Shown: piece by piece, positions 8,863 through 47,018 of the stretch
Layout of the letters: the number at the start of each line of letters is the position of its first letter
Numbering within the stretch: the first letter of the stretch is position 1
Assembly (NCBI RefSeq): GCF_009806575.1
Contig: NZ_CP047095.1
Location: 786,001 to 850,000 of the forward strand
DNA length: 64,000 nt
Source of the DNA: Rossellomorea marisflavi
GTDB lineage: Bacteria; Bacillota; Bacilli; Bacillales; Bacillaceae_B
Reading direction: 5' to 3'
Made by a program: the position numbers and the translations under genes
Notes under the pieces: generated by a model
Database searches by the model: none
Told to the model about the DNA's origin: nothing
Seen by the model: the letters and a program-made list of their open reading frames with translations, nothing else

Positions 8863-9431
8863 ATGATACAATATCTCGGTACGCCGGTACTGGAAACGGA
8901 ACGGATCATTTTAAGGAAGATCGAGCTTTCAGACGCTCAGTGTGTATTCGATCATTGGCTTAGCGATGATCGGGTAATGGACAATCTCATAAAAGGTGCC
9001 CATAAGTCTGTATCGGAGACCATTGAGAGGGTAAAAGAAATCGTGAAGAACTATGAGTCACAGGAGTTCTGTTATTGGGGATGGAACTGAAAACGAGCGG
9101 TGAATTGATAGGAGCAATCGATCTTTTTCATTTCGATGGTCTGACGGATAATTGTGAGGTCGGCTATTCTATCGGTTACAAATGGTGGAACAAGGGATAT
9201 GGGACTGAAGCCCTTAAAGCGGTCATTGATTTTGGTTTTAGAAGGATGAACGTTCATAAGATCTCAGCCGCACATAACTTGGATAACCCTGCTTCGGGGA
9301 AGATTATGCTCAAGAATGGAATGGAGCAAGAAGGTACGATTAAACATATGATCCGGAATGCTAAACATCAGTATAAAGATTGTGCTCTTTATGGGCTTCT
9401 GCAGGAAGAGTATAGGAAGAAGGGAAAGTGA
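8863..9431 (+). pseudogene. GNAT acetyltransferase, frameshifted in a G-run
   Basis: A RimJ/RimL-type acetyltransferase in two frames. 8863-9090 gives the N-terminal half (TERIILRKIELSDA...). The rest (GELIGAIDLFHF, then EVGYSIGYKWWNKGYGTEAL with the acetyl-CoA loop, ending at 9431) is read from about 9080 in another frame. The break is at TTGGGGATGG (G4 at 9077-9080); one extra G would join the halves as YWGMELK. The start has a GAGGTGGGGG site. Two other genes in the window show the same one-G loss, so a base-call error is possible. Confidence 0.85.
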
Positions 9432-9440
9432 TCTTAATAA

Positions 9441-9478
9441 AACGGGACAGTGGTTTGGATACCACTGTCCCGTTTTGT
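9441..9478. terminator. bidirectional intrinsic terminator
   Basis: AACGGGACAGTGGT (9441-9454), loop TTGGAT, ACCACTGTCCCGTT (9461-9474), then TTGTTG; A-rich upstream. Between the broken acetyltransferase and the convergent gene ending at 9502. Confidence 0.95.
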
Positions 9479-9501
9479 TGTCGTCGGTTCGGATATTCAG
9501 C

Positions 9502-10296
9502 TCATGAATGATCTTCCCGTATGTCCTTGATGCTCTTGCCGGAAAGAAAGGCATGCCCACTCCGCATCCGTTCGACGGTAGTGAACCCGTAGCGTGCGTA
9601 CACCTTCTCCACGGCTTCATTGATCGGCAGGACCCATAGGTTGGCCATGCCCCTGCGCGTTGATTCTTCCTGGATGAAGCGGATGAGGTGACCGATCAAT
9701 CCTTTTCCCCGGTGGGATTCAAGGGTCGCGACGCTTTCAAGGCGCGCATCCAGACCGTCTTGAAACAGACAGGCCGTGGAACACGCTTCCCCGTGGAGCC
9801 TGAGAAGGTAGTAGCTGAACGAAGGGTGGGCAAATTGCTCTTCGAAGACCTTTGTGATGGTTTCCTTGCTGCCGAATTCCTTGATGGTGCTTTCAACATC
9901 GATGGCTTCTTGGACATTTTCCCCGGTCACTTCTTCAATGGTCACGCCAGGATTGTCGGCCACACTCGCCACCTGGTTGTTCCATAGCTGGACGGGGCTG
10001 ACGAGTTCTTCGTACTGGAACTGATTCTTTTCTAATTCAGACAGCAGCGGTTATTGAAGGTGGAGCTCATGGATGTAGAGTCGCGGGACGAGGTTCTTTT
10101 TCTGATAAAAAGACACCACTTCCGCAACCATTGCTTGCGGATCATGGCACTCCCGGATGACGTGCGCATGATTGGCATCGTAGTAGCGGGGCTGATTTTC
10201 GTTATAAAAGAGAGCTCCCCACGGGGTGTCGAGGCGGGTGGAGAATGCCCCGAGGTAGGAGAGGTCCAGATTGTATAGATCATCGGTTGGGTTCAT
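9502..10296 (-). pseudogene. GNAT acetyltransferase interrupted by an in-frame TAA
   Basis: A gene of 265 codons with one premature stop. It starts at 10296 behind AGGAAGGAAC (MNPTDDLYNLDLSYL...), runs 81 codons to TAA at 10051-10053, and continues in the same frame as PLLSELEKNQFQYEEL into a complete C-terminal GNAT domain (ARLESVATLESHRGKGLIGHL acetyl-CoA loop, then YARYGF). Because the frame is unchanged, this is a base substitution rather than an indel. The GNAT domain could still be made from a GTG near 9975, but no good ribosome site is visible. Same-strand small gene lies 18 bases upstream. Confidence 0.8.
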
Positions 10297-10314
10297 GGTT
10301 GTTCCTTCCTTCTA

Positions 10315-10477
10315 TTACATCATCCACGTCAGCATGACATTGATAACAAGAACCGTCATGCCGAGTCCGATGATGTTTTTTTTCGCAGTCAGGGTGATCC
10401 GGCCTTTCTTTTGTTTGGATGTCACGATCATCAGGGTGACGAGATTGATGAGTAGTATTGATCAGTGTTGTTTGCAT
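10315..10477 (-). pseudogene. small membrane protein with a frameshift near its start
   Basis: AAAGGAG and an ATG at 10477 open a frame (MQTTLIN...) that becomes nonsensical, whereas the next frame from about 10455 reads LLINLVTLMIVTSKQKK, a short basic turn, then IIGLGMTVLVINVMLTWMM and TAA at 10315-10317. This is a convincing two-helix membrane protein of about 50 residues. Removing one A near 10455 would join the parts. It lies 18 bases before the disrupted acetyltransferase on the same strand. Family not recognised. Confidence 0.55.
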
Positions 10478-10614
10478 GGGTCGCTCCTTTAAGGTATAGT
10501 GCTTCCTATTTTACCATTAATTGGCTGGTGAGGTGGGGAGGAATGAAGGTGAATCCACGTTTGGAGTAGAAGTAGGATAGATAGAATGAATTTCTTGCGT
10601 GGAAGGAGACCATC

Positions 10615-11193
10615 ATGACAACAATCGGACTGATCAGACATGGCATCACAGAGTGGAATCTCTTGGGGAAGGCTCAGGGAATAAGCGACATCCCTCTGAA
10701 TGAAACAGGTAGGGAACAGGCGGATAAATTGGGTGAGAGGTTAGCCGGCGAGGAGCCGTGGGATCTGATCATTGCAAGTGATCTATGCCGGGCAAGTGAA
10801 ACGGCCGACATCATAGGGAGTAAGATCGGGCTGTCCCTTCATCATACGGATGAAACGATCAGGGAAGTGAACTGCGGGGAAGCGGAAGGCATGACGGAAG
10901 AGCAGCGCCTCGAAAAGTGGGGAAAGGAATGGCGCAGCAGGGCTATTGGGATGGAGAAGCATGAGGACGTAGCGGGCAGGGGCGTGAGGTTTTTAGAAGA
11001 CGTGGTCCAGAAATATGAAGGCAAGAGGGTGTTGGTGGTGAGCCACGGGGCGTTGATCGGTTTGACGCTCAAGCGATTGATGCCCGATGCATTCCAACAG
11101 ACGAATATGGAGAATACATCCATCACGGTGTTGCATCATCACGAGGATCGGTGGGACTGTTCCCTATACAATTGCGCTAAGCACTTGATCTAA
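10615..11193 (+). CDS. histidine phosphatase (PhoE/YhfR-like)
   Basis: A 192-residue phosphoglycerate-mutase-superfamily phosphatase. Catalytic LIRHGITEWN at the N-terminus carries the phospho-acceptor His; SDLCRASETA gives the phosphate-binding Arg; the second His is in VVSHGALIG. Length and motifs match Bacillus PhoE (YhfR), a broad-specificity phosphatase. GGAAGGAG precedes the ATG. Followed by a strong bidirectional terminator. The true substrate is not evident. Confidence 0.85.
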   Translation: MTTIGLIRHGITEWNLLGKAQGISDIPLNETGREQADKLGERLAGEEPWDLIIASDLCRASETADIIGSKIGLSLHHTDETIREVNCGEAEGMTEEQRLEKWGKEWRSRAIGMEKHEDVAGRGVRFLEDVVQKYEGKRVLVVSHGALIGLTLKRLMPDAFQQTNMENTSITVLHHHEDRWDCSLYNCAKHLI

Positions 11194-11194
11194 C

Positions 11195-11233
11195 AAAAAG
11201 ACCAAAAGGCACGGGGTGTCTTTTGGTCTTTTT
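11195..11233. terminator. bidirectional intrinsic terminator
   Basis: AAAAAGACCAAAAG (11195-11208) pairs with CTTTTGGTCTTTTT (11220-11233) around a short loop. Confidence 0.95.
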
Positions 11234-11267
11234 CCTTCATTAGAGATTGGTCGGTCCATGGGGGAGG

Positions 11268-11834
11268 TCACCCTTTATTGTTGACCCACTTGATGACCTT
11301 GGCAGGATTCCCACCGACTACGACGTTATCAGGGATATCCTTTGTCACCACTGTCCCTGATCCGATGACAACATTGTCGCCGATCGTGACACCGGGGTTG
11401 ATTATGGCACGGCCGCCGATCCAGACGTTGTCACCAATGGTGACGGGTTTGCCTGACTCGATGCCGCTGTTCCGCTCATGGGGGTCAATCGGGTGGGTGG
11501 CGGTGTAGATGTGTACGCCAGGGGCAATGAAGCAGTTGTCACCTATGCGGATATCGCATACATCAAGGAGGACGCAGTCAAAGTTCGCGTAGAAGTTCTC
11601 CCCGACGTAAATATTGGAGCCATAGTCACAGCGGAAGCTCGGTTCGATGAAGAACTGGTCTCCGGTTTCACCGAATAGTTCGCGGATGATGGATGTGCGC
11701 TTGTCGAGGTCTGTGACCGGTGAATGATTGAAGTCATGGATCTTTTCACGGGCATGGGTTCTTCCTGCCACGAGCTCGGGATCGGCGGGATTGTAGTTCT
11801 CTCCTGCAAGCATCTTTTCTTTTTCGGTTTTCAT
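11268..11834 (-). CDS. maa: maltose O-acetyltransferase
   Basis: A 188-residue left-handed beta-helix acetyltransferase of the LacA/NodL/Maa group. N-terminal [15 protein letters not shown] is the family cap; the hexapeptide repeats run from about residue 70; catalytic His is in [12 protein letters not shown]; the C-terminal [19 protein letters not shown] is diagnostic. The ATG at 11834 is better spaced from AAAGGGG than the TTG six bases earlier. The enzyme acetylates maltose and other sugars with acetyl-CoA. The secreted beta-helix gene lies 21 bases upstream on the same strand. Confidence 0.9.
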
Positions 11835-11855
11835 GGGCAATGGCCCCTTTCGATT

Positions 11856-13145
11856 TTAGTTGTGGATCACACCGGGGATGAAGGGCGGATGGGTGATGTC
11901 TTGTCCATTCCAGATCCAGCGGTCGGACTCACTGCTGTCGTTCCCGTACACATTCCCGATCAGCTGGTTGTCCCGGTTGGACGGGTGGAGGCTAACCAGG
12001 AACAAGCCGGTATCGGTGGGGATCATGATGTTGTTTTCCACCAGATTCTGAGTGGCATGATACTGCATGAGCAGCTGTCCCCCGTCCATGCCCATGGTGT
12101 CATTCCCGTAAAGGAGATTATGGGAAATGCGGGTGTGCGTGGTGCCGCCCCGTTTCAAATCGTAACCCCCGATTGAAATACCCGTGTAGCGGTTCCTGTA
12201 AACTTGGTTCCAGGCAATCTGGACCCGCGTCGTTTGTTTGCCGGGATGCTCACTGGCAATCTCGATTCCGAGGTCGTTATGATGGGAGATGTTGTGCTCG
12301 ATGACCACATCCCTCCCTCCGTCCACATAGATGCCTCCGGCGGAGTATTCTTCATGGTAGGTAGGGTTGGAATGACTGCTGACGTTATACACATGATTGT
12401 CACGGATGATGCCTTCGCGCGCCTGATCGTATTGCTCAATCGGGGCAATCCCTTCAAAGCCGATGACATCGATGCCGATGTTATCTACATTCCGGATCGT
12501 ATTCCCACTGATGAGGAAATCCTTCACATTGCCGTTCAACGTCATCGCTTCACTGAATCCGAGGGTCAGGTCTTCGAGGATATTGCCGGAAATCTCGATA
12601 TCCTGGAGCGGTTCAGGTGCCTCTGTGCCATAGAAGGCGATGCCATGGGCATTGCCGTTCGGATGGGTGGTAGTGATATCAAAGATCCGATTACCAAGGA
12701 TCCGGATGCCTGTCCCGTTTCCTTCTACTAAAATACCGGACGGGGTGGGCTCCTCTTGATCGGTGGAGAGGCCACCCACATCGAGTCCCTGGATCGTGAT
12801 ATAGCTTTTATTGCGGATGGTGATGAGGCCGCCATCTGCAGGTGCAGTCTCCCCGCTGATCACCGGGACCTCATCTTCATAGTGGGTGAAGCGGATCGGT
12901 TCCTGCTTTGTCCCGGAGTGCTTGATGTCCAGCCGTTCCGGGTACGTGCCTTCCCTCAGGTAGACTGTGGTACCCGGCACGGCCAGTTTGCTTGCTTTTT
13001 TCAACGTCTTCAAGGGCTGTTCCTTTGTGCCGGGATGGCTGTCATCTCCATCAGGAGAGACGAACAAAGTGGACGGTCCGGCTGCTTCCGTGTGAAGAGG
13101 TAGGAAGCAACATAGGATGATGGCGATACTGAGGATCTGTTTCAT
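11856..13145 (-). CDS. secreted right-handed beta-helix protein (DUF1565/pectate-lyase-like)
   Basis: A 429-residue protein with a clear signal peptide (MKQILSIAIILCCFLPLHTEA, cleavage near residue 22). FVSPDGDDSHPGTKEQPLKTLKKA is the DUF1565 entry motif, followed by parallel beta-helix coils with repeated IxIxGNxI and IxxN patterns over residues 100-400. This fold is found in polysaccharide lyases and glycan epimerases. I see no lyase catalytic set that I could assign, so the glycan target is unknown. AAGGAG precedes the ATG. Probably cotranscribed with the acetyltransferase downstream. Confidence 0.8.
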   Translation of the reverse strand: MKQILSIAIILCCFLPLHTEAAGPSTLFVSPDGDDSHPGTKEQPLKTLKKASKLAVPGTTVYLREGTYPERLDIKHSGTKQEPIRFTHYEDEVPVISGETAPADGGLITIRNKSYITIQGLDVGGLSTDQEEPTPSGILVEGNGTGIRILGNRIFDITTTHPNGNAHGIAFYGTEAPEPLQDIEISGNILEDLTLGFSEAMTLNGNVKDFLISGNTIRNVDNIGIDVIGFEGIAPIEQYDQAREGIIRDNHVYNVSSHSNPTYHEEYSAGGIYVDGGRDVVIEHNISHHNDLGIEIASEHPGKQTTRVQIAWNQVYRNRYTGISIGGYDLKRGGTTHTRISHNLLYGNDTMGMDGGQLLMQYHATQNLVENNIMIPTDTGLFLVSLHPSNRDNQLIGNVYGNDSSESDRWIWNGQDITHPPFIPGVIHN

Positions 13146-13360
13146 AAAAACTCCTTGATGGTAGTGGTTTCTGGTACCGTGACAGACGGTCAGGTTCGAT
13201 GGGAGAGGGCCAATCGCTGTTGGGATGGTTGATCTGAATATTTTTATTGATATTTTATTTGTTGCTTAACGTCTTTTAGAGAAATGCGTTCCAATCTTAA
13301 TGGGATTGTCCCAGGCACACCTTTATACTATTCCTATTAACGATAAAGGAGAGGATCGGA

Positions 13361-13426
13361 TTGCCAAAGAAATCGTGGAAAGAGTACTTTTTTGAGATTG
13401 TTCGATCGGTCATTTTCTACAAATAA
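13361..13426 (+). CDS. possible 21-residue peptide
   Basis: TTG start with an unusually good ribosome site (AAAGGAGAGGATC) opens 21 codons (PKKSWKEYFFEIVRSVIFYK) to a TAA immediately before the end of the convergent acetyltransferase gene. Amphipathic and basic at its N-terminus. Family not recognised; may be a gene fragment. The remainder of the gap 13146-13360 contains no other feature I can support. Confidence 0.25.
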   Translation: MPKKSWKEYFFEIVRSVIFYK

Positions 13427-13427
13427 G

Positions 13428-13904
13428 TCAGAGCTGTTTGATGTACCACGTATCCATGGTTCCATGCTCGGATCCATCCAAGGGTTCTGTCCGCTTGGTG
13501 AAGCCCAATCGATCGTACAGGGAGTTGGCTGCCTTCAGCTGTTCCATTGTTTCGAGATAGCAGTGATCATAGTGGTCCGAGGCGAATTCAAGGGCTGTGT
13601 TCATGAGCGCTTTGGCCACACCGAGTCCCCTGGCTTCCGGTGACACATAAAGCTTCTGGAGCTCACAGATCCGTTGTTCCCTATCGAAGGGGGCGATGCC
13701 GACCCCTCCCAGGATCTGATTCTGCTCGTTCACCGCGACCCAGTAACAGGCATCGGGCTGTTCACTATAGTAGCTTGATAGGTCGTCCAGATAAGGATCG
13801 AAGTAAGCTGTTCCAGGGATGTCGAGATGATTGGCTTCGAGGATGTCGCGGATGATCGCTGCCATCGCCTTGTTGTCTTTCTCTTCCAGTAAACGAATCT
13901 TCAT
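13428..13904 (-). CDS. GNAT acetyltransferase
   Basis: A 158-residue GNAT protein. The core is intact: ILGGVGIAPF (beta4), CELQKLYVSPEARGLGVAKALM (acetyl-CoA pyrophosphate loop RGLGVA) and AANSLYDRLGF at the C-terminus. The start at 13904 has GGAGGT 4 bases upstream and is preferred over an in-frame start 135 bases earlier. It resembles a subgroup annotated as putative N-acetyltransferases acting on small amines or amino acids. Monocistronic. Confidence 0.85.
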   Translation of the reverse strand: MKIRLLEEKDNKAMAAIIRDILEANHLDIPGTAYFDPYLDDLSSYYSEQPDACYWVAVNEQNQILGGVGIAPFDREQRICELQKLYVSPEARGLGVAKALMNTALEFASDHYDHCYLETMEQLKAANSLYDRLGFTKRTEPLDGSEHGTMDTWYIKQL

Positions 13905-14118
13905 GAGGACCTCCGATTGTGAATTTTTAGTATATTCATTATAGGAGAGTTTACGGAAGTCGGCAAGGCAGAGAACAGGACGAGAGGTCAACCGCATGAG
14001 ATCAAGTTGATCATCTCGGCTCTGAAATCCTCCTATCATGTACCACCTAGCTCTGTAAAAAAGAAAAGCATGATCTTATAGAAAGATCTCACAATGGTTG
14101 CGGAAAGGAGGAGAACAG

Positions 14119-15745: not shown

Positions 15746-15767
15746 TTGGTTGGGTACCTTCCGTGCT

Positions 15768-15795
15768 CTCTTAGGAATCTAAGAGGGTTTTTTTG
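15768..15795 (+). terminator. intrinsic terminator
   Basis: CTCTTAG (15768-15774), loop GAAT, CTAAGAG (15779-15785), then GG and seven T. Confidence 0.85.
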
Positions 15796-15885: not shown

Positions 15886-16578
15886 GTGGGAAATGGGATT
15901 GTGTGTGAATCGGTGACGAAGGAATTCAAGGGGGATGGAATCGGGACCAAGGCGTTGGACGGGGTGAATTTGACGTTTCATGATGGAGAGTTCGTATCGA
16001 TTGTCGGTACCTCGGGTTCCGGGAAATCTACCCTTCTCAGCCTGATCGGGACGCTGGATGCACCGACTTCAGGAACCGTCATGATCGGGGAGAAAGATGT
16101 CCGGAAGATGAAGAAAAATGAGCTTGCCGATTTCCGTTTTGAAACGATCGGTTTCATCTTTCAGCAGTTCCATCTCCTCCCGACCCTTACATCACTCGAA
16201 AATGTCATGGCCCCATTGTTTGCCCGGAAGGTCTCTTACAATAAAAAAGAAAAGGCGATGGCGGTCCTTGAAAAAGTAGGGCTGAAAGATAAGATGAATT
16301 CCCTCCCATCCCAGCTCTCGGGTGGTCAGCAGCAGCGGGTTGCCATTGCCAGGGCACTGATTCATGAACCGAAGTGGCTCCTTGCCGATGAGCCGACGGG
16401 GAATCTCGATTCGGAAACGGGAGAGGTGATTTTCGAAACCCTCTCAGCCCTTAACAGGGAAACGGGCTGCGGCGTCATCTTCGTCACACATGATCCCGCC
16501 CTTGCGGCGAAAGCGGATCGCATCATCGAGATGAAGGATGCCCGGGTGATTTCGGACAGGGCAGGCATGGCTCTATGA
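15886..16578 (+). CDS. ABC transporter ATP-binding protein (MacB/LolD type)
   Basis: A 230-residue ATPase. Walker A GTSGSGKST, Q-loop FIFQQFHLLPTLT, signature LSGGQQQRVAIARAL, Walker B WLLADEPTGNLD and switch His in VTHDP are all present. GTG start behind AAGGAGG. It overlaps the FtsX-type permease gene by 4 bases (ATGA). In Firmicutes such pairs export peptides or sense antimicrobial compounds; no substrate can be assigned here. An apparent 3' remnant of a second copy of this gene lies at 19868-19966. Confidence 0.92.
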   Translation: MGNGIVCESVTKEFKGDGIGTKALDGVNLTFHDGEFVSIVGTSGSGKSTLLSLIGTLDAPTSGTVMIGEKDVRKMKKNELADFRFETIGFIFQQFHLLPTLTSLENVMAPLFARKVSYNKKEKAMAVLEKVGLKDKMNSLPSQLSGGQQQRVAIARALIHEPKWLLADEPTGNLDSETGEVIFETLSALNRETGCGVIFVTHDPALAAKADRIIEMKDARVISDRAGMAL

Positions 16579-19500
16579 TGAGGTTCATCTGGAATAGCTG
16601 GTGGCGGAATAAGGGGCGATTCATCCTGCTGTTGGTCGGGGCACTCATCGTCAGCACGGGGCTCAGCTATCTGGTCGGGGTGACCCAGTCCAATTCGGGA
16701 ACGGTCGTGGATGAACTGCAACAGCGCTGGAAGTCCTCCTACCATATCGTCGTCCGACCCGCCGATTCCCGCGGCGTGACAGAAGAGTTGAATCTTCTCG
16801 AACCGAACTACCAGAGCGGTTTATCAGGCGGGATCACCATGGAACAGCTGGAGACAGTGAAAGGGATCGGCGATGTCGAGGTGGCGGCACCGATTGCCAT
16901 GATCGGGTTTGTGGATAATGAAACGACTTTAGAAAGAGTGACCTTTCAGGATCCCGGGATCTATCGCGTAGAGTATATGGAGGAGCTGACGAACGGCAAC
17001 GAGACTCAAAAAAATGGATTCAATAGTTACTATTCGGTCGGCTGGGCAGATGAAGGAATGGGGGAACATGGGACATTTAATTATGAAGGTGATGTTCCCC
17101 TTTCAGTCATTTCGGAGGTCATGCTGGCCGGGGTCGACCCTGAGGCTGAGAATGCCCTTGTGGGTCTTGAGGGAGCTGTGGTCGAAGGGTACAACAGCCG
17201 ATACTTTGAGGAAAACGATAAAGCGACCCAGTCACAATTCGAAGAGATGGTAGAAACCAATATCCCGGTCCTATTGAGCAATGTGGACTTTGTCGAAAGT
17301 AAGCAGTTTTATAACATTACCAAACTTGACATTCCATTTCCTGTAGAAGAACGAGATAAGACGATGGAAAGCATTAAGGAAAAAGGTGGAGAACAGTATC
17401 TGGATAAGCAAGAAGGAGAAGAAATCGAATCCTACTCGTTCACCTCCAAGGAAGCACATGAAAAATACATCAAAAATATTGTGGATCCTTCGGCCAATGA
17501 TTCGCGATTGGCCCTGGACCCGATTGTCCTATTCAAAGCGTCACCGGTTGAGTATCGTCCGGTGTCCAGCCCGTTCCCGGAAAGATGGCCGTTTGCTTAC
17601 GAGGTAAAGCCTTATTTGATCCCCGATGACGTGCAATTGTTGGAGCGGGAAGCGTACCGTCAAGTCAATCTCTTTGGAGAAAGATTGCAAGATGGGAAAC
17701 GCCTAAGGCTCGATATTAAAGGTGTCTATGACCCTACCAAGCTTGAAATTTCGAAAGATCCATTAACAGAGCTTCCGATGGAAACGTATTTCCCGGCAAA
17801 ATCAAACTTAGTGATGGATGAGGATCAGAATCCCGTCAATCCGCCAGTTGAGATGATGCCGACGAACAACCCATATGGATTCCTCACAAAGCCGCCGATG
17901 ATGCTGACGACCCTGGAGGCCGCGGAGAAGGTGCTGGGGGAAGAGCCCGTTTCCTCGATCCGGGTCAAAGTGAAAGGCGTCGAAACCATGAATGATGAGA
18001 GCGAGAAACGCCTTCAAGCCGTGGCCGATCAAATCGAGAAGGAAACGGGTCTGATCACTGACATCACCCTCGGTTCCTCCCCTCAACCGGCTCTGACCCA
18101 TGTCCCCGGTTTGAAAGGGAAGGAAGGAATCGGATGGGTGGAACAGCCGTGGATCAAGATCGGATCCTCCATGACGATCTTCAAGGAAGCGAAGGTCGGA
18201 CTGAGCGCCATCATTGCAAGTGTGATCCTTGTTGCCATCGTCTATGTCTTCTCGTCTAACCTGATCATGATGTTCACGAGGAAGAAGGAATTTGCCGTTC
18301 TCCTCTCCATCGGCTGGAGACCGAATCAGCTGTCGAAGCTCCTGTTCATGGAAGCCATACTCCTCGGAAGCTTCGTCTCGCTTGTGAGCTGGGTCATCCT
18401 TGGGTACTTCTATGTGAGCTCGAGCGTTTCCACATCAATCGTGCGCTTTATCCTCATCGGTTGTTTCGGTCTTCTGATCTACCTACTTGGTACGGTCATA
18501 CCGGCCATCCTAGTGCGGAAAATCAAACCGTACGAAGCGATGAGGAGTGGTGAAATCACCGCCGTTGGTAGGCGGTTACTGCCTTCCTCATCCATTTTCA
18601 CCATGAGTGTGAACCATTTTATCGGAACGTGGAAACGGAGCATCCTTTCCATTGTCTCCATCGCTCTTCCGACGGGTCTCTTCATCCTCTTCCTCTTCAT
18701 CACTTTCAGGCTGAAGGGGGTCATGTTTGCCACATGGCTCGGGGAATACGTCGCCATGGAAGTCGGGGCCATGCATTATATCGCCATGGGTGTCGCCCTT
18801 CTCATTGCCATTCTGACGACAACGGAGATCATCTGGCAGAACGTGTCTGAGAGGAAGCCCGAGATTGCCCTACTGAAATCCGTCGGGTGGCAGAACGGGA
18901 AGATCCGCAGGCTTGTCCTGTATGAAGGACTCCTCAGCGGCCTTGCAGCCGGCATCCTCGGCCTGGTGATCGCCATTACGGCCATCTGGAGAATTTACGG
19001 AGAATTCCCGACGGAGCATCTTCCGTTCATTCTGGCCTGCATCCTCATCCCGATCGCAACGGGTATGCTTGGGGCCTTATTTCCGGCAGCGGCGGCGGTC
19101 AAGGTCATGCCGTACCAGGCGCTGGGGGGAAGTGCCGACACTTCAGAGAAGACGGAAAAAGGGTTTAAAGTCGTCCTTGTGACAGGAGGCATCATCCTTT
19201 TTGCCGGCATGATTGCCGTGCTCGCCAATGCCGTGCCTCAGGTCAAAGAGTCAGCATCGGAAAAGGTGGATCCTTCTACGGTGAAGGGGACGGATGGAGA
19301 GACAGAAAGTGTGTTCAAGCAAGAGGAGAAAAAAGAAAAACCTGAGGACAAAGACAGTGAGGAAGACCGTGATTCGCAGTCAATCGAGAATAAAGCCTGG
19401 ATGGTCGCAGAGCTCGGTGATGAAGTGACGGAGGATCAGTCCTTAAGGATTTTATTTAAAGAAGCTGAAGCAGAGGAGCCCATTAGCCCCGAGAACCCCG

Positions 19501-19829
19501 ATAACCGAATCATTACATTGCAGGGGGAGTTTTATCTGGATGCACGTAAGGATGATGAATATTCAATTGATGACACAGAGTTCACCCTGAAAGGACTTGA
19601 TCTTATGGATGATCAGAACAATGTCTACACGCCTGTTCAAACAAACGTCCTTGAGAAGGAGAAATGGAACAATATCAAACTTCTAAAAGGTGGCCATGTC
19701 ATTCTTCAACTAAGCTTTGAAGTACCAAAGGACGCTACTCCACTCTACATGAGGAGAGCCACAAGCGGGAAGCCACGACCTTACTTATTGATTGATTTGA
19801 AGGGGATGGGTGAGGAAGCAACAGAGTGA
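16575..19829 (+). CDS. giant FtsX-type ABC permease with extra C-terminal domain
   Basis: A 1084-residue permease. TM1 (about residues 14-36) is followed by a large extracytoplasmic region (about 40-540), then a four-helix FtsX block near 545-660, further helices around 690-850, a last helix (VVLVTGGIILFAGMIAVLANAV) near 870-890, a highly charged linker rich in Glu and Lys, and a soluble domain from about residue 970 (ENPDNRIITLQGEFYL...EKWNNIKLLKGGHVILQLSFEVPKD) that looks like a DUF4352-type immunoglobulin-like fold. Typical family members are 650-860 residues and lack this tail. The same TM1 and tail recur in the next gene. Works with the ATPase at 15886. Confidence 0.9.
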   Translation: MMRFIWNSWWRNKGRFILLLVGALIVSTGLSYLVGVTQSNSGTVVDELQQRWKSSYHIVVRPADSRGVTEELNLLEPNYQSGLSGGITMEQLETVKGIGDVEVAAPIAMIGFVDNETTLERVTFQDPGIYRVEYMEELTNGNETQKNGFNSYYSVGWADEGMGEHGTFNYEGDVPLSVISEVMLAGVDPEAENALVGLEGAVVEGYNSRYFEENDKATQSQFEEMVETNIPVLLSNVDFVESKQFYNITKLDIPFPVEERDKTMESIKEKGGEQYLDKQEGEEIESYSFTSKEAHEKYIKNIVDPSANDSRLALDPIVLFKASPVEYRPVSSPFPERWPFAYEVKPYLIPDDVQLLEREAYRQVNLFGERLQDGKRLRLDIKGVYDPTKLEISKDPLTELPMETYFPAKSNLVMDEDQNPVNPPVEMMPTNNPYGFLTKPPMMLTTLEAAEKVLGEEPVSSIRVKVKGVETMNDESEKRLQAVADQIEKETGLITDITLGSSPQPALTHVPGLKGKEGIGWVEQPWIKIGSSMTIFKEAKVGLSAIIASVILVAIVYVFSSNLIMMFTRKKEFAVLLSIGWRPNQLSKLLFMEAILLGSFVSLVSWVILGYFYVSSSVSTSIVRFILIGCFGLLIYLLGTVIPAILVRKIKPYEAMRSGEITAVGRRLLPSSSIFTMSVNHFIGTWKRSILSIVSIALPTGLFILFLFITFRLKGVMFATWLGEYVAMEVGAMHYIAMGVALLIAILTTTEIIWQNVSERKPEIALLKSVGWQNGKIRRLVLYEGLLSGLAAGILGLVIAITAIWRIYGEFPTEHLPFILACILIPIATGMLGALFPAAAAVKVMPYQALGGSADTSEKTEKGFKVVLVTGGIILFAGMIAVLANAVPQVKESASEKVDPSTVKGTDGETESVFKQEEKKEKPEDKDSEEDRDSQSIENKAWMVAELGDEVTEDQSLRILFKEAEAEEPISPENPDNRIITLQGEFYLDARKDDEYSIDDTEFTLKGLDLMDDQNNVYTPVQTNVLEKEKWNNIKLLKGGHVILQLSFEVPKDATPLYMRRATSGKPRPYLLIDLKGMGEEATE

Positions 19830-19867
19830 TGGGAGTTAATGTGGAACATAAAAAAGGGGGAGTATGT

Positions 19868-19966
19868 GTGAGGATCATGAATGTGGTAGAACTGTCGATA
19901 AGAGAATTCAAAGTAAATGAGAAGGATATCCAGATGATTACAGGGAAGGCAGGTGAGGCCTTATGA
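19868..19966 (+). pseudogene. 32-codon ORF, probable 3' remnant of a duplicated ABC ATPase gene
   Basis: GTG behind GGGGGAG opens 32 codons ending ITGKAGEAL-TGA. The last 25 bases (GGCAGG..GGC..TATGA) align with the end of the ATPase gene at 16560-16578 (GGGCAGGCATGGCTCTATGA), and both end in the same ATGA overlap with the following gene. I read it as the scar of a duplicated ATPase-permease unit that may still be translated and coupled to the next gene. Confidence 0.45.
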
Positions 19967-20565
19967 AGAAACTCATCCTTTCATTGGCCGGGGCACTCAT
20001 TGTTATCGCGGGGATCAGCTATCTGGTTGTGGTGATGTCCGGTTCGGGTACGGATGAAAAAACGACAGGCAAACAGGAAGAAAAGAGCAAAGAGAAAGAA
20101 GGGAACGAATCGCAAGAAGCATTGGCCGCTTTGGAAAAAGGGGCTAATAAAGTAACATTGGGTGAAGCAAAAGAATCCTTTGAATATTCTATTGTAGTGG
20201 ACCAGGCAGAACCTGTAGAGAAGATTGCTCCGGAGAACCCCGACAATGAGATCATTACGCTTCAGGGGGAAGTGAAAATGCTCCCCAATGAAAACACAGA
20301 AGAGGGATCGAATACAGATACACCATTTGCCCTCAGAGGTCAGATTGTAATCGATGAAAACGGAGAAGAATACGAAGCCATCCAAACGACATTTGTTAAA
20401 AAGGAACGCTGGAACAATGCAAATATTAAGCCTGATGGGCACATCATCTTTCTAAAAAGCTTTGAAATACCGAAAGATACGAAAGTCCTTTATTACAAAA
20501 TGGATAAAAACGGAATGCTTTTGTCGGATCTGCTTGTTGATTTGGAGGCGTTGGATAGAGAATAA
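19963..20565 (+). CDS. membrane-anchored protein derived from the FtsX permease (TM1 plus C-terminal domain)
   Basis: A 200-residue protein: one N-terminal helix (LILSLAGALIVIAGISYLVVV), a charged Glu/Lys linker, and a soluble domain from about residue 85. The helix closely matches TM1 of the upstream permease (VGALIVSTGLSYLVGV there), also at DNA level, and the soluble domain matches the permease tail (APENPDNEIITLQGE, then ERWNN and SFEIPKD). Everything between, about 900 residues, is absent. Starts in an ATGA overlap. The parsimonious reading is duplication followed by a large in-frame internal deletion. It may act as a membrane-tethered partner or decoy of the transporter. Confidence 0.75.
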   Translation: MKKLILSLAGALIVIAGISYLVVVMSGSGTDEKTTGKQEEKSKEKEGNESQEALAALEKGANKVTLGEAKESFEYSIVVDQAEPVEKIAPENPDNEIITLQGEVKMLPNENTEEGSNTDTPFALRGQIVIDENGEEYEAIQTTFVKKERWNNANIKPDGHIIFLKSFEIPKDTKVLYYKMDKNGMLLSDLLVDLEALDRE

Positions 20566-20678
20566 GGTTGCTATGCGTCCGCCATATATGAATGGAATGG
20601 TAGAAATTTGAAACTATTCTCGAGCACGTTCGTATGTATAGGAAAGATGGATTCCACTCGACGAAGGAGGAAACCGAT

Positions 20679-20852
20679 ATGTGGTGGTTTGTCATACTGA
20701 TTGTTGGGGTTTTATTGTTCGCGTTATTCATTGACTGGAGGCGCAGGAGAAACAACAATAACCCTCATATCCCAACCGATCCGAATGCGAAGCCGGGTGA
20801 CAGTTCGAATTATATGATGGGGGACAATCGACATACTGGAAGTGGTCAGTAG
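20679..20852 (+). CDS. small single-helix membrane protein
   Basis: A 57-residue protein: one hydrophobic helix (WWFVILIVGVLLFALFIDW), an arginine cluster, then a hydrophilic Asn/Pro/Gly-rich tail. The ATG at 20679 follows GAAGGAGG; the frame is open 45 bases earlier but without a ribosome site. Family not recognised. About 100 bases after the permease-derived gene. Confidence 0.65.
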   Translation: MWWFVILIVGVLLFALFIDWRRRRNNNNPHIPTDPNAKPGDSSNYMMGDNRHTGSGQ

Positions 20853-41306: not shown

Positions 41307-42098
41307 ATGGAAATCAATGACCTTATCATATTCAAAACAGTCGTAACAGAAGGATCAATCAGTAAGGCCGCGAACGTCTTGGGGTATGTGCAGCCTCACC
41401 TGACAGAACGGATTAAGCGATTGGAACAAGAACTGGATACACCGCTACTCAACCGATCGAATAAGGGCGTCACCACCCTTCCATCAGGAGATGTGCTGGT
41501 CGGCTACGCAAACAGGATCTTGAACCTGGTTGACGAAGCGAAACATGAAATCAAAAGGACCAACGCCCTTCCTTACCGCATCGCCACATCGCCATCGATT
41601 CTGTCCAGCTATGTCAGCAAACGGATAAGCGGGACGTTCATGAAGTACGAATTGACGATCGAGAACAGCAGCCAGCTGCATTCTTTATTAAGGAATCAAA
41701 AGGTGGACATGGTCATCACATATGGAACGTATGCCGATTCAGATTTCCAACAAGTGGGGAGCCATACGATTTCAATGGGATTACAGAAAGCGAAGGGTAA
41801 GACGGTCATGGATTTTTCGAAAGAATATTTCTTTGTCAGTCAGGACCAACAGTGCCCCTTCAGGAAGCGTACGATTGACTTTATGGAGGAGAATCACATC
41901 CCTATGGAGCAACTTCATCCTTTGGATTCTTTCTCACTGATTCAGGAATTCATCTCCGAGGGAAAAGGAATCGCCTTTCTACCTATCAAGGATGATCAAT
42001 TAGAAAGAGTGGAAGATGTAGAGGTAGAAAGCCTGTCTGTTCACTTTTACACGATGCGTGAATCAGGGAGGGAGATCCCTGCTGACCTGTTGCCTTAA
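41307..42098 (+). CDS. LysR-family regulator (short form)
   Basis: A 263-residue LysR protein: winged helix (NDLIIFKTVVTEGSISKAANVLGYVQPHLTERIKRLEQEL) and a substrate-binding domain with YRIATSPSILSSYVS and SLIQEFISEGKGIAFLPIKDD. It is some 25-30 residues shorter than the usual 290, with the C-terminal strands reduced. Ribosome site is weak (AAAAGAG). Divergent from the DUF4865 gene, its likely target. Confidence 0.88.
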   Translation: MEINDLIIFKTVVTEGSISKAANVLGYVQPHLTERIKRLEQELDTPLLNRSNKGVTTLPSGDVLVGYANRILNLVDEAKHEIKRTNALPYRIATSPSILSSYVSKRISGTFMKYELTIENSSQLHSLLRNQKVDMVITYGTYADSDFQQVGSHTISMGLQKAKGKTVMDFSKEYFFVSQDQQCPFRKRTIDFMEENHIPMEQLHPLDSFSLIQEFISEGKGIAFLPIKDDQLERVEDVEVESLSVHFYTMRESGREIPADLLP

Positions 42099-42182
42099 GG
42101 GTTTCCCACTTCATCGTTTCGTGCCTACACACGATATAATAGGTGATAACAGATTGATAGACTTAGAAAAGGAGACGATCAC

Positions 42183-43001
42183 ATGCCTTATTGTAAAGTA
42201 CGCAAAGCAGACATCTATTATGAAGAAATAGGAGAAGGCACGCCCATCATCATGATCCACGGCTATTCACCTGATCATCGTTTAATGAAAGGGTGCATGG
42301 AGCCGGTATTCGACAAACGGGATGGGTGGAGGCGGATCTACATAGACCTTCCAGGAATGGGCTCGACGGATAACTATGACGGGATTAAAAGTTCCGATGA
42401 TATGTTGGAAGCGGTCCATGAGTTCATTCAGACGGTCATTCCTGATCAAAAGTACGCTATAGCGGGCGAATCGTACGGTGGTTATTTGACCAACGGCCTG
42501 ATCCATAAGGATGAACATAACATCCTTGGTGCAGCTTTCATCTGTCCAGTGATAAAGCCCCATCATCAGGATCGGACCGTGCCGGAGCACGAGGTTTTGA
42601 AGATTGATGAGAATTTCATCAGCACACTGAGCCAGAATGAACTTGAAGACTTCAGGTGCAACAATGTAGTGCTGAATAAGTCGACGTGGGAGAGATACAA
42701 CAACGAGATCATAAGTGGAATTCAGATGGCCGATCATGCCTTTTTGGATAAGGTCCAGGAGAATTATGGTTTTTCATTTGAGGTCGGTCAATCGGTCTTT
42801 GCCAAACCAAGTTTGTTCCTCCTCGGGAAACAAGACGCGACGGTGGGGTATAAAGATGCTCTAGAATTACAAGGGGCATTTCCACGTGGAACATTTGCCG
42901 TAGTGGACCAGGCAGGGCATAACTTGCAGATTGAGCAGCCGGGGATTTTTAATGCTTTAGTGGAAGAATGGTTGGAGCGAATGGGAACAGGCATCTGTTA
43001 A
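42183..43001 (+). CDS. alpha/beta hydrolase, copy 1
   Basis: A 272-residue alpha/beta hydrolase. Oxyanion motif IIMIHGYSPDHRL, nucleophile GESYGGYL (Ser), acid in LLGKQDATVG and catalytic His in VDQAGHNLQIEQP. About 89 percent identical, by eye, to the protein at 45160; the match continues into the downstream spacer and the next gene. GGAGACG precedes the ATG. Substrate unknown. Left member of a direct duplication that frames several immunity-type genes. Confidence 0.9.
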   Translation: MPYCKVRKADIYYEEIGEGTPIIMIHGYSPDHRLMKGCMEPVFDKRDGWRRIYIDLPGMGSTDNYDGIKSSDDMLEAVHEFIQTVIPDQKYAIAGESYGGYLTNGLIHKDEHNILGAAFICPVIKPHHQDRTVPEHEVLKIDENFISTLSQNELEDFRCNNVVLNKSTWERYNNEIISGIQMADHAFLDKVQENYGFSFEVGQSVFAKPSLFLLGKQDATVGYKDALELQGAFPRGTFAVVDQAGHNLQIEQPGIFNALVEEWLERMGTGIC

Positions 43002-43268
43002 TAGGCAATAAAAAATGAAAAGACTTGACTTAAAGCAAGGTAAACATAAATTACCTAGATCTCGATAAGTGATTAATGGAGGGTGAAAGAGTGAGTAAAA
43101 AGAAAAACAAACCCATGCCAGGGCAGATATATGCAGCTGAATTACCCAATAAATATTGGTGCGCCCTTGGAGTAATTAGTGTCGTTGGAAATTCTTATTT
43201 GGTCTATACAACAGCGTATTATGATTTGGTCCCTCCTGAAATAGAGGATGCACGATTGTCTCATTTCT
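42183..43268 (+). repeat. duplicated segment, left copy
   Basis: From the hydrolase gene through the 80-base spacer into codon 60 of an Imm26-like gene, the DNA closely matches 45180-46258. The similarity stops at CTCATTTC near 43268, where the left copy of the second gene runs into a TAA. Copies lie about 3 kb apart in direct orientation. Confidence 0.85.
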
Positions 43269-43270
43269 AA
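43091..43270 (+). pseudogene. truncated copy of the Imm26-like/DUF4240 gene
   Basis: GTG behind GGAGGG opens 59 codons (KPMPGQIYAAELPNKYWCALGVISVVGNSYLVYTT...PPEIEDARLSHF) matching the first 60 residues of the intact protein at 46080, then TAA. The sequence after the stop is unrelated to the intact gene, so the 3' 220 codons were lost at a recombination junction. It could still make a small protein covering only the N-terminal domain. Confidence 0.8.
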
Positions 43271-43325
43271 TACAAAGGAGCGAGTTCTTATTCTCCTGCT
43301 ATTAATTAAAGGAGGTTTGAGGGGA

Positions 43326-44165
43326 ATGCCAATTAAGCGCTTAAGAAAAATACATGATGGCCGAATTATTGTTGAGGATAATAACTTATCTTATCACTTA
43401 GAATATATTAAAGAGAACGATGAAAAAAAGCTCCAGATCACCGACTATTATTTTAAAATGGATAATTTAGATTTTTTAAGAGAGTGTCCAGGGGTGGAGG
43501 AAATTTATGTTTCCAGTAGCTACATCACTGATATTGAAGGTTTATATGATATAAAATCCCTGAAAAAAATAAGTATTCATGTTCCTGGAATCTCACTTGA
43601 TTTAACGCGTTTCCCTGATTTGGTAGATTTGGATATAGAGTGGAATAGTAAAATGAAAGGGTTATCATCTAGAACTAGACTAAAGGAATTAATGCTTTAT
43701 AATTACAGACCCAAAAATAAAAATTTAATTGAATTGGAAGAAATGTTGGACTTAACATCATTAATAATAACTCTATCCAATATTACTTCTTTTGAAGGTT
43801 GTACCTCTCTAGGGAATCTTAAGCGTTTGGAATTGAATTATTGTAGAACAGCTTTGAATTTAGATGAATTATCTAGTCTAACACTTGAAGAGATTAGTAT
43901 TGAAAACTGTAAGAAATTTCTCAACATGGACTCATTAAGTAAAATGAAAACCTTGAAGAAAATTATGTTGGAAGGGTGCGGAAAAATACCTAGTATACAA
44001 TTCATATCTGATATGCCGTCACTATCCCATTTTGCTTTTGTTAAGACCGAAGTAGAAGATGGAAATTTAACGCCTCTTGAAAGACTTGATTATGCAGCTT
44101 TCGATGATAAGAAACATTATTCACATTCGTATTCTGATTTTACGAATCGAAATTCATATCATTAA
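43326..44165 (+). CDS. leucine-rich-repeat protein, orphan immunity-like
   Basis: A 279-residue cytosolic protein. After an N-terminal region (DGRIIVEDNNLSYHLEYI), leucine-rich-like repeats run through residues 60-250: LKKISIHVPGISLDLTRFPDL, LDLTSLIITLSNITSFEGCTSL, LKRLELNYCRTALNLDELSSL, LEEISIENCKKFLNMDSLSKM. No signal peptide or membrane helix. AAAGGAGG lies 13 to 19 bases upstream, with GAGGGG closer. The gene is AT-rich compared with its neighbours. LRR proteins of this kind occur among immunity genes of polymorphic toxin loci; here this is inferred from context only. Confidence 0.75.
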   Translation: MPIKRLRKIHDGRIIVEDNNLSYHLEYIKENDEKKLQITDYYFKMDNLDFLRECPGVEEIYVSSSYITDIEGLYDIKSLKKISIHVPGISLDLTRFPDLVDLDIEWNSKMKGLSSRTRLKELMLYNYRPKNKNLIELEEMLDLTSLIITLSNITSFEGCTSLGNLKRLELNYCRTALNLDELSSLTLEEISIENCKKFLNMDSLSKMKTLKKIMLEGCGKIPSIQFISDMPSLSHFAFVKTEVEDGNLTPLERLDYAAFDDKKHYSHSYSDFTNRNSYH

Positions 44166-44173
44166 AATGTTTC

Positions 44174-44296
44174 GGTATAAGGAATTTTGCGACCATCAAC
44201 CAGCTAACCAACTATATAGTGCAGGAGATCCCCGAAGATTATCCCGTCATTGCAAACGGTGCTCTGCTAAACAGGGACGAATGGTTTCTTGAATAA
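44174..44296 (+). pseudogene. 3' fragment of an unknown gene
   Basis: An open stretch of 40 codons without a start (GIRNFATINQLTNYIVQEIPEDYPVIANGALLNRDEWFLE) ends in TAA at 44294. It has coding-like composition and a typical protein C-terminus. It begins 9 bases after the LRR gene stop. I do not recognise the family; it looks like the tail of another immunity-type gene left by recombination. Confidence 0.5.
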
Positions 44297-44321
44297 TAAG
44301 AAAGAAAAAAAGAGGTAATTC

Positions 44322-45041
44322 ATGACTGAAAAATCATTCACAATTGGAGGTTGCGAGTTGAGATTAACCGATGTATTAGATCAACATTATCATAACTACG
44401 ATTTTATTTTCTTGGAAAATGCAAACTTTGATTATGTTACATGCAAGTTGGACGTATATGTAAAAGATCAAAACTGGCTAATTGCTTTTCAAAAGATGGG
44501 GATTTCAAAAGGAGGTCCTGAAACGTGGATATATTATTATTCAAATCTCAACCCAGAGAATTACGGGTTTGTGGATTGTGAAAATATTGAGCTGAATAAA
44601 AATTCGTCCAATCCTTTATTTGAAGGTACGATTACTGTAAATGAAGACGTAACCTTATACAGCTTAAATGAAAACGATTATACAGAAAATAATATTTCAA
44701 TTCTGGACCAATGTTATATCGACACTTATTTGCTACGAGCTTTAAATGAACACTACCCTGATTCAATCAATTGGTTTATGCCTAGTGATAAGGTATTAAA
44801 AACAATTAATGAAACGAGTGGTTGGATTTCTTTTTACAGCACCGAATGTTGGGAACATGTGGAGGTCGAGAGTGAGGCACCAAGTGAAAATCCTTTTTTC
44901 ATTTCATTAGAACGAGCTATAATCGAAAAAAATATAGCTTTAGTTGAACAAGGTAGTGGAAATACCCATTGGAGTAATTGGACTGAATATGATTTTGATA
45001 AACAAAACGATTGGGAGACGGATTTTGAAGATTATGAATAA
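44322..45041 (+). CDS. acidic cytosolic protein, possible immunity protein
   Basis: A 239-residue, strongly acidic protein (many Asp, Glu and Asn; C-terminus DWETDFEDYE). No signal or membrane helix. Sequence such as GGPETWIYYYSNLNPENYGF and GWISFYSTECWEHVEVESEAPSENPFF resembles the small acidic proteins found in immunity arrays, but I cannot name the family. ATG behind AAGAGGT. AT-rich like the rest of the 43.3-46.9 kb island. Confidence 0.7.
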   Translation: MTEKSFTIGGCELRLTDVLDQHYHNYDFIFLENANFDYVTCKLDVYVKDQNWLIAFQKMGISKGGPETWIYYYSNLNPENYGFVDCENIELNKNSSNPLFEGTITVNEDVTLYSLNENDYTENNISILDQCYIDTYLLRALNEHYPDSINWFMPSDKVLKTINETSGWISFYSTECWEHVEVESEAPSENPFFISLERAIIEKNIALVEQGSGNTHWSNWTEYDFDKQNDWETDFEDYE

Positions 45042-45159
45042 ATTTTAAATGGATTTTAAAATATTCTAATCTCCATTGTTTAGTTAGTTTATTATATTGG
45101 AAAAAAGTATGGCTATTCTATATATGATTATCTCAAAATAGTACTCGGTGTAAGAAAGA

Positions 45160-45990
45160 GTGGCAACTCAACTGACTTATTGTACTGTAAATATAGCAGA
45201 CATCTATTATGAAGAAATAGGACAAGGCACCCCCATCATCATGATCCACGGCTATTCACCTGATCATCGTTTAATGAAAGGGTGCATGGAACCTATATTC
45301 AACGAACGGCATGGGTGGAGGCGGATCTACATAGACCTTCCAGGCATGGGCTTGACGAGGGATTATGACGGGATTAAATGTTCAGATGATATGGTGGGAG
45401 CGGTCCATGAGTTCATTCAGACCGTCATTCCTGATCAGAAGTATGTCATTGCTGGCGAATCGTACGGTGGTTATTTGACCAACGGCCTGATCCATAAGGA
45501 TGAACATAACATCCTTGGTGCAGCTTTCATCTGTCCAGTGATTAAGCCCAATCATCAGGATCGGACCGTGCCGGAGCACGAGGTTTTGAAGATTGATGAG
45601 AATTTCATCAGCACACTGAGCCAGAATGAACTTGAAGACTTCAGGAGCAACAATGTGGTGCTGAATAAGTCGACGTGGGAGAGATACAACAACGAGATCA
45701 TAAGTGGAATTAGGGTGGCGGATCATGCCTTTTTGGATAGAGTACAGGAGAGTTATGGTTTTTCATTTGAAATTGGTCAATCGGTCTTTGCCAAGCCAAG
45801 CTTGTTCCTCCTCGGGAAACAAGATGCGACGGTGGGGTATCGGGATGCACTTGAATTAGAAGACAAGTATCCGCGTGGTACATTTGTCGTAGTGGATCAG
45901 GCAGGGCATAACCTGCAGATTGAGCAGCCGGGGATTTTTAATGCTCTTGTGGAAGATTGGTTGGAGCGAATGGGAACAGGCATCTGTTAA
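45160..45990 (+). CDS. alpha/beta hydrolase, copy 2
   Basis: A 276-residue paralogue of the protein at 42183 with all catalytic motifs kept (HGYSPDHRL, GESYGGYL, KQDATVG, QAGHNLQ). About 29 substitutions over 268 aligned positions, clustered at residues 5-75 and in one loop (ELEDKYPRG). It starts with GTG and the N-terminal four residues differ; the ribosome site (AAGAAAGA) is much weaker than in copy 1. Followed by an intact Imm26-like gene. Confidence 0.88.
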   Translation: MATQLTYCTVNIADIYYEEIGQGTPIIMIHGYSPDHRLMKGCMEPIFNERHGWRRIYIDLPGMGLTRDYDGIKCSDDMVGAVHEFIQTVIPDQKYVIAGESYGGYLTNGLIHKDEHNILGAAFICPVIKPNHQDRTVPEHEVLKIDENFISTLSQNELEDFRSNNVVLNKSTWERYNNEIISGIRVADHAFLDRVQESYGFSFEIGQSVFAKPSLFLLGKQDATVGYRDALELEDKYPRGTFVVVDQAGHNLQIEQPGIFNALVEDWLERMGTGIC

Positions 45991-46258
45991 TAGGCAATAA
46001 AAAATGAAAAGTCTTAACTTAAAGCAAGGTAAAAATAAATCACCTAGACCTCGATAAGTTAGTAAAGGAGAGTGAAAGAGTGAGTAATAAGATGAAAAAA
46101 CCAGTTCCTGGACAAGTATATACAGCCCAATTTCCTAATCATTACTGGTTTGCCCTCGTTGTATTGAATGTAGTTGAAAATTCGTATTTGGTCTATACGA
46201 CTTCGTATTATAGTAAAATTCCTCCAGAAATTGAGGATCCTTGCTTGTCACAATTTTA
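45160..46258 (+). repeat. duplicated segment, right copy
   Basis: Right copy of the direct duplication with 42183-43268. Even the intergenic TAATAGGCAATAAAAAATG and the AAAGCAAGGTAAA stretch are kept. The similarity begins at the TTATTGT codons just inside the hydrolase gene, so the left junction is inside the coding region. Confidence 0.85.
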
Positions 46259-46931
46259 CTATGGTTATGATTTACATTTAAAACGCCCCGAACCATCCAT
46301 CTATTGGATTGATGGGAAGCCTGGTGATAATTATAAATTGATCGGGGAAATTGATTTAAAAGGAAAAAATGAGATCAAGAAGAGTAATTGGTACAGTGGA
46401 ATATGGAAGCAGTTTTTTCCAAGTGACCTTATGAGAGACAAACAAAAAGAATCAGAGATTGTCTATAAGCAAGAACCTACAGTGCTGGAAGGTAATTATT
46501 CTGAAGAGCTAGATGAGAAGACCTTTTGGTCGTTAATTGATCTCATTGATATGGATCAAGAGGATCCAATGGAGGCATTAATCTGTCATTTGGAAAAATT
46601 ACCTGTTGAAACAATCTATGCATTTGAAGAGACACTTAGCCACAAGCTCTTTTTATTGGATAGGCCAGAACATGCTGGAGTTGATGGTGAGTCAGAAGAA
46701 TACCTCTCACCCGATGCCTTCCTTTATGCACGTTGTGCAGTGATCATAGAAGGTCAACATTATTTTGATCAGGTAGTCAAAGAGGCAGCGGAAATTGACT
46801 TAGAGTGGGATGCTGAAGAGCTCCTGGAAGTGGCAAGTGAAGCTTACAGTAGAAAAACCGGTGAGACCTTTGATTATGTTAGTCGTTTTGATTATGAAAC
46901 TTACTCAAATACATCTGCTTGGGAAAAATGA
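46080..46931 (+). CDS. two-domain protein: Imm26-like N-terminus and DUF4240
   Basis: A 283-residue cytosolic protein. Residues 1-110 (PGQVYTAQFPNHYWFALVVLNVVENSYLVYTT...) have the strand pattern of Imm26-type immunity domains; residues about 140-280 match DUF4240 (TFWSLIDLIDMDQEDPMEAL, then YLSPDAFLYARCAVIIEGQHYFDQVV and a KTGETFDY tail). GTG start behind AAAGGAG. Both domains are seen among immunity proteins of contact toxins. No toxin gene is in the window, so it is an orphan. Confidence 0.75.
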   Translation: MSNKMKKPVPGQVYTAQFPNHYWFALVVLNVVENSYLVYTTSYYSKIPPEIEDPCLSQFYYGYDLHLKRPEPSIYWIDGKPGDNYKLIGEIDLKGKNEIKKSNWYSGIWKQFFPSDLMRDKQKESEIVYKQEPTVLEGNYSEELDEKTFWSLIDLIDMDQEDPMEALICHLEKLPVETIYAFEETLSHKLFLLDRPEHAGVDGESEEYLSPDAFLYARCAVIIEGQHYFDQVVKEAAEIDLEWDAEELLEVASEAYSRKTGETFDYVSRFDYETYSNTSAWEK

Positions 46932-47018
46932 AATAATCAGAAATGAAAGATTCTAAAAATCAATTAATACACCCTAGACAATTGGTAAAGGAGGTTAGTT
47001 GCCTCTAAACAGAAAGGT

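Follow-up and report, generated by a model that had tools for sequence, protein, structure and literature searches.

A small membrane protein gene of Rossellomorea marisflavi that probably arose from a neighbouring type VII ABC permease gene by duplication and in-frame deletion

A small gene of Rossellomorea marisflavi, encoding a 200-aa protein with one membrane helix and an outer domain (P0001), very probably arose by tandem duplication and in-frame internal deletion of the ABC permease gene beside it. We studied this gene within the window, the 64,000-nt stretch of contig NZ_CP047095.1 that was analysed here, and its origin, architecture and conservation appear to be well established at the sequence level. 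The case would be a readable example of how a new, selected gene can be made from a large transporter through duplication and in-frame deletion, with the scar of a neighbouring gene still present. In process the small gene is like other genes born by duplication and internal deletion; it differs from them in that both of its ends are still legible, together with what is left of the end of the gene next to it, and in having a parallel, a free domain in another genus.

The putative parent is an ATPase–permease unit on the same strand:

15886..16578, + strand: gene for the LolD-like ABC ATPase, 230 aa (PF00005, E 3.1e-35)
16575..19829, + strand: parent permease gene (P0002), 1084 aa (PF02687, E 1e-22; hydropathy; AlphaFold2 model)

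The ATPase scored 249.6 bits against the LolD_lipo_ex model, which is under the model cut-off of 307.75. P0002 reached 80.8 bits with PF02687 (cut-off 25.5) over two FtsX stretches, and its hydropathy profile revealed nine hydrophobic segments (overlaps merged), a large outer domain and a C-terminal outer domain after the last segment. The AlphaFold2 model of P0002 (pLDDT 73.5, pTM 0.54) gave 11 Foldseek matches at E ≤ 0.001, all of them to YbbP, LolC/LolE, MacB or 5xu1; the best chain was YbbP of E. coli (9ge6, E 1.3e-6), followed by the pneumococcal 5xu1, which we take to be Spr0694-0695, MacB and LolE, the last of which was also matched at the sequence level (E 2e-4). The parent permease is a YbbP/LolE/MacB-type (type VII) ABC protein with a modular outer tail. 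As in YbbAP, LolCDE, MacB and BceAB, there are FtsX domains, a double-permease chain and a LolD-like ATPase; however, the TM-scores to type VII chains are low (0.17–0.31 over the query for the 11 best matches), and nine segments plus an outer domain after the last one distinguish P0002 from YbbP, which, according to an excerpt of PMC12646458, has ten helices with an internal duplication and binds the hydrolase TesA. We found no known substrate for the transporter group concerned and, among the papers that our literature searches listed, nothing on the small gene or on its permease family; an excerpt of PMC11466899 describes the functions of B. subtilis MacB-like transporters other than FtsEX as obscure. 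Independently of the small gene, we observed that the large outer domain of the permease (window 16860-17950, codons ~95-455) shares only 68% protein identity with R. marisflavi JCM 11544 and that the flanking parts of the gene differ by a few percent of bases, a pattern that we read as an allele swap in this domain.

Comparing positions 19826-20700 with 15886-19829 of the window by BLASTN, we obtained two strong, collinear blocks of similarity between the small gene and the permease gene, one at the first helix (TM1) and one at the C-terminal domain:

19963..20565, + strand: small gene, 200-aa one-helix protein with outer domain
19973..20053, + strand: TM1-derived anchor of the small gene
16621..16704, + strand: permease TM1 block matched by the anchor (65/84 nt, E 7e-14)
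20191..20477, + strand: tail-domain copy in the small gene (beta sandwich in the model, DUF4352-like)
19449..19732, + strand: permease C-terminal domain block matched by the copy (170/289 nt, E 1e-11)

An earlier note made from the letters of this DNA had described the protein as a permease TM1-like helix joined to a copy of the permease C-terminal domain, and had named a lack of nucleotide similarity at the two ends as grounds for dropping the idea; both blocks are significant, and the description holds. Its wording that the helix is almost identical to TM1 is too strong, since the resemblance amounts to 77% at the DNA level and 18/29 residues (62%) in the protein. The C-terminal domains of the two proteins share 54/133 residues (41%, E 6e-27). 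The small gene lacks about 12 codons of the permease N-terminus (the MMRFIWNSWWRNKGR region, as read from the sequences), and Pfam returned no match for P0001, the FtsX-like permease domain included; unlike type VII permeases, the small protein is therefore without an FtsX domain. A short word, GG(A/G)ACGG, was spotted by eye near the end of TM1 and in the linker.

Among the loci compared, and apart from the small gene itself, the DNA of the small-gene helix was matched best by TM1 of the permease next to it (77% over 84 nt in the window and 76% in JCM 11544). After it came L032 of Exiguobacterium, with 72% over 76 nt, and the second permease in the genomes that carry the small gene, where 80% identity extends over no more than 45 nt. 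In a separate comparison of helices, with references from seven loci only, the small-gene helix scored 71 against TM1 of the neighbouring permease and 57 against the next five listed. TM9 was also considered as the source of the helix and rejected in favour of TM1 by helix comparison. A tree was built from 48 domain sequences, 43 of them different. In it, the domains of the small protein from the window and from JCM 11544 together formed the sister of the C-terminal domain of the neighbouring permease with support of 100/95, and L087, a second permease encoded in the same genome, fell outside this pair, as did the permeases of other Rossellomorea. The two domain copies are separated by ~1.4 changes per column, compared with ~2.8 to the next nearest rows; given this distance and an identity of only 41%, the duplication is not recent.

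An alignment with one free jump, run on the first 330 nt of the small gene only, placed the missing part between a point just after TM1 and the linker after the last helix, the best solutions removing ~2,620 nt (~873 codons). Four best breakpoints were tied (left end 16702-16705, right start 19323-19328), all of them in frame, and 6 of the 12 listed one-jump solutions keep the frame. Both ends of the small gene are collinear with one parent and the middle is missing; in the tied best solutions the deletion is in frame, as had been proposed, and its size, put earlier at about 900 codons, is corrected to ~873. No duplicated sequence was detected 3' of the small gene (608/2000 shuffles scored as high).

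Further evidence comes from the short open reading frame that precedes the small gene:

19826..19966, + strand: leader ORF frame, 46 codons from GTG 19826 or 32 from GTG 19868, with an ATGA overlap with the small gene
19921..19966, + strand: remnant of the ATPase 3' end in the leader (gapless 46-nt match)
16533..16578, + strand: ATPase 3' end matched by the leader
15765..15788, + strand: terminator-like hairpin before the ATPase–permease unit (seen in a pattern scan only, which gave 4 sites where 6.0 would arise by chance)

The last 46 nt of the leader and of the ATPase gene are identical at 32/46 positions without gaps, the ATGA stop-start overlap included. In the comparison with the final 198 nt of the ATPase gene, this score was reached by none of 2000 dinucleotide shuffles; when the comparison was confined to the final 60 nt of each sequence, 1 of 5000 reached it. 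The claim that a 32-codon ORF ends like the ATPase gene, with the same ATGA, is thus borne out for these 46 nt but not for the first part of the leader, which did not match the ATPase gene above chance (72/500 shuffles scored as high); the length of 32 codons is correct when counted from GTG 19868, the same frame being open over the 46 codons from GTG 19826. The frame shows 2 differences from JCM 11544. We rejected a special RNA structure in the leader (z +1.24, 183/200 shuffles folding at least as well) and also a special conservation, the 147-nt run identical between the window and JCM 11544 being unexceptional in a 7.6 kb region that also contains identical runs of 317 nt and 219 nt. A consensus pattern scan listed no terminator-like site on the + strand from the permease to the small gene.

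The collinear order of ATPase end, ATGA, TM1 and tail domain, together with the in-frame jump and the sister relationship of the tails, is what would be expected if the unit was duplicated and then internally deleted. A full ATPase–permease pair, as assumed earlier, need not have been copied, because a tandem duplication starting late in the ATPase gene, plus one large deletion, suffices. We therefore propose that, in an ancestor of the R. marisflavi clade, a tandem duplication would have begun in the 3' end of the ATPase gene and taken in the permease gene, and that the second permease copy would then have lost ~2.6 kb in frame as well as its N-terminal amphipathic stretch. The product left would consist of an anchor derived from TM1, followed by a charged linker and a single Ig-like, DUF4352-like domain predicted to lie outside the cell, with the start of the small gene still overlapping the putative ATPase remnant by ATGA.

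The distribution of the small gene is consistent with such an origin. Permease relatives (E ≤ 1e-50) occur in 16 of the 36 genomes of the genus, with two each in G000 and G011, and these two, both carrying the permease, are the only ones with the small gene (2/36); the small gene has a narrower spread than its parent and is nested beside it in the tree. A contig search with the permease as query returned 57 loci, among which the small gene was present only at the JCM 11544 locus (L006), and the searches run on plasmids and viral contigs gave no relative of it. An ancient small gene present without the permease in other genera, which would have spoken against the proposal, was not encountered. 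The duplication was probably restricted to the marisflavi lineage, where it would predate the split of the two species represented by the window and JCM 11544. As to an intact second unit in relatives, none was seen at the same place in G018, G008 and G012, where the unit has other neighbours: of the ORFs between 4 and 36 kb of the window that lie outside the unit, only two had matches in G018 and none in G008 or G012 within 19 kb around the units, and the unit therefore lies at a different place there. Intact ATPase–permease units in tandem (two, with other ORFs between them) do exist in another genus (L119). Two features of the surroundings may be mentioned here: JCM 11544 carries ~2.4 kb with hydrolase-like and other ORFs 3' of the small gene (L006 13010-15419) that is absent at window 20566-20598, and window 42001-50000 has a G+C content of 0.38-0.40, compared with ~0.49 in most of the window, and may be an island.

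The two diverged small-gene sequences available, from the window and from JCM 11544, are both open and differ by 22 synonymous and 11 non-synonymous changes (dN/dS 0.12; Fisher test of changed against unchanged sites over the whole gene, p 8e-9). By part, dN/dS was 0.073 for the domain and 0.48 for the linker, and the helix holds only 2 synonymous changes and 1 non-synonymous change. This comparison indicates that the small gene is under purifying selection, most clearly in its domain.

AlphaFold2, run on 25 aligned domains, predicted a beta sandwich (pLDDT 85). The domain profile matched YjhA of B. subtilis (3cfu, E 2.4e-5), and the first rows of a structural comparison were YxkC (9a4z, an integrative model; Z 7.7), YcdA (4r4g, Z 7.1) and YjhA (Z 7.1), with Z below 8 being middling and not decisive; all three are presumably DUF4352 proteins. 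Foldseek gave no match to the domain model at E ≤ 0.001. Of the 25 domain sequences, 9 matched DUF4352 in Pfam with E no higher than 1 (2.6e-6 for the best of them), and 4 matched DUF5643. An excerpt of PMC4520260 assigns an immunoglobulin fold to DUF4352. With its modelled beta sandwich and the YjhA profile match, the small protein's domain may resemble the Ig-like Bacillus surface domains of the DUF4352/YjhA type, but P0001 itself has no DUF4352 match in Pfam, and we call its outer domain DUF4352-like. A whole-word literature search found no paper with YxkC and DacA together.

What follows the last helix varies in a modular way within the permease family: the tail may be absent, hold one or two domains, or combine one or more domains with an HExxH stretch. 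The HExxH tail was present in 8 of 58 permease rows (L014, L018, L012, L015, L020, L022, L023 and L058), and Pfam identified an M1 peptidase (PF01433) in both of those tested, L014 (E 6.1e-11) and L018 (E 6.3e-9); in both, a type VII permease is fused to an outer peptidase, at L014 over positions 9001-13986. Two domain copies within one permease were found in 12 ORFs at 10 loci (one ORF each in L014, L036, L040, L041, L049, L052, L060 and L062, and two each in L037 and L038).

A search of 19 Exiguobacterium genomes (the genus of Exiguobacterium undae) gave a domain match in 16 of them and, in six (G276, G277, G278, G279, G283 and G289), a separate ORF of 204-250 aa that contains the domain. 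In all six, a free one-helix copy lies directly upstream of a permease (L037, L034, L043, L061, L128 and L129), and among the matches listed there was no ATPase just upstream of these permeases. The free copies at L043, L061, L128 and L129 gave dN/dS values of 0.04-0.10 over six pairs, synonymous change being near saturation in the L128 pairs. A single clade of free copies, defined by five rows (window, L006, L034, L037 and L043) and named after the tree had been seen, was rejected (p-AU 1.5e-5), and helix comparison indicated that the Exiguobacterium anchors are neither clearly TM1- nor clearly TM9-derived. The same genus holds tandem arrays with truncated members. At L126 (1735-19480), five permeases follow one another and a domain piece of 123 aa is present; no ATPase is listed in the 19.9 kb of this locus, whose first permease lies near the end of the stretch. 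L127 (1599-19900) carries half a permease (490 aa), a piece of 61 aa and an ATPase match that skips residues 125-189 (65 residues). Given these arrays and the tandem units at L119, duplication and deletion are frequent in the permease family. Separately, a 340-aa ORF (L090 from 820; L125 5049-6068) joins an acetyltransferase-like start, judged by eye, to the last part of a permease and appears to be a different deletion derivative.

With regard to function, we consider it most likely, with moderate confidence, that the small protein would serve the neighbouring type VII transporter as an additional, membrane-anchored copy of the outer domain. It would act as an accessory outer subunit that gives the permease a second domain copy in trans, in parallel to relatives with two copies in cis; we infer topology, co-expression, association with the permease and the domain's binding target. 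Type VII systems are described as acting with outer partners (YbbP-TesA, FtsEX-EnvC and LolCDE-LolA; excerpt of PMC12646458), and by analogy the small protein may be another outer protein that serves an FtsX-type permease, although, unlike TesA, EnvC and LolA, it would be a derivative of that permease and retains a membrane helix of its own, the partnership being putative. The six of 19 Exiguobacterium genomes with a one-helix domain copy beside a permease, copies for which a single origin shared with the small gene is rejected, argue for an accessory role, and with this parallel the reason for having the outer domain of a transporter as a free copy becomes open to testing. On the other side, a second domain and an adjacent free copy are both absent from most of the permeases seen and both present at L037, so that no simple 'cis or trans' rule applies; moreover, constraint on the small gene is clear only in the domain, and the Exiguobacterium anchors have no clear source in TM1 or TM9.

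That last point also bears on the idea that the small protein dampens the transporter, either because its TM1-like helix replaces TM1 of the permease or because its free domain competes for a ligand, which we regard as unlikely. The kept helix is TM1 itself, the gene lies directly 3' of the permease gene, and the permease model shows TM1 as a single helix on to residue 52, with low confidence; but the small gene lacks the permease N-terminal stretch and most of what follows TM1, and because the Exiguobacterium analogues retain the domain with no clearly recognisable TM1, it is the domain rather than TM1 that looks selected. Distinctly less probable still is an independent DUF4352-like surface protein that stands beside the permease by chance and plays no part in transport. 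Free DUF4352-like proteins do exist in the order, at lengths of 164-252 aa, and in Virgibacillus subterraneus (L046) one of them follows the gene for an ECF sigma factor, yet those of 164-252 aa match at E 1.5e-9 or weaker. The small protein, which is itself among the rows of the profile, reaches 4e-31, and its domain is the sister of the neighbouring permease's own tail. Finally, the truncated pieces noted above (123 and 61 aa and the 490-aa half permease at L126 and L127, and the 340-aa ORF at L090/L125) show that members of the family often leave such copies, and a decaying, functionless remnant would fit among them; this we consider very unlikely, as the small gene is open in both species, its changes are biased towards synonymous ones, and the domain is its most constrained part. 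Returning to the accessory subunit, we tentatively suggest that tandem duplication and deletion may repeatedly deliver extra copies of the outer domain, either fused in cis or released as partner proteins with one helix next to the permease, and that the released copies would adjust or widen the range of what is sensed or handled by the transporter.

The Virgibacillus subterraneus locus (L046 5051-6227) deserves a separate remark. There, an ECF sigma factor gene, in which sigma domains were found, overlaps a one-helix ORF with the same outer domain, and in the domain tree this domain groups with a Salinibacillus permease tail. An ORF overlapping an ECF sigma factor gene occupies a position typical of anti-sigma factors, and this arrangement therefore hints at a sensing role for the domain.
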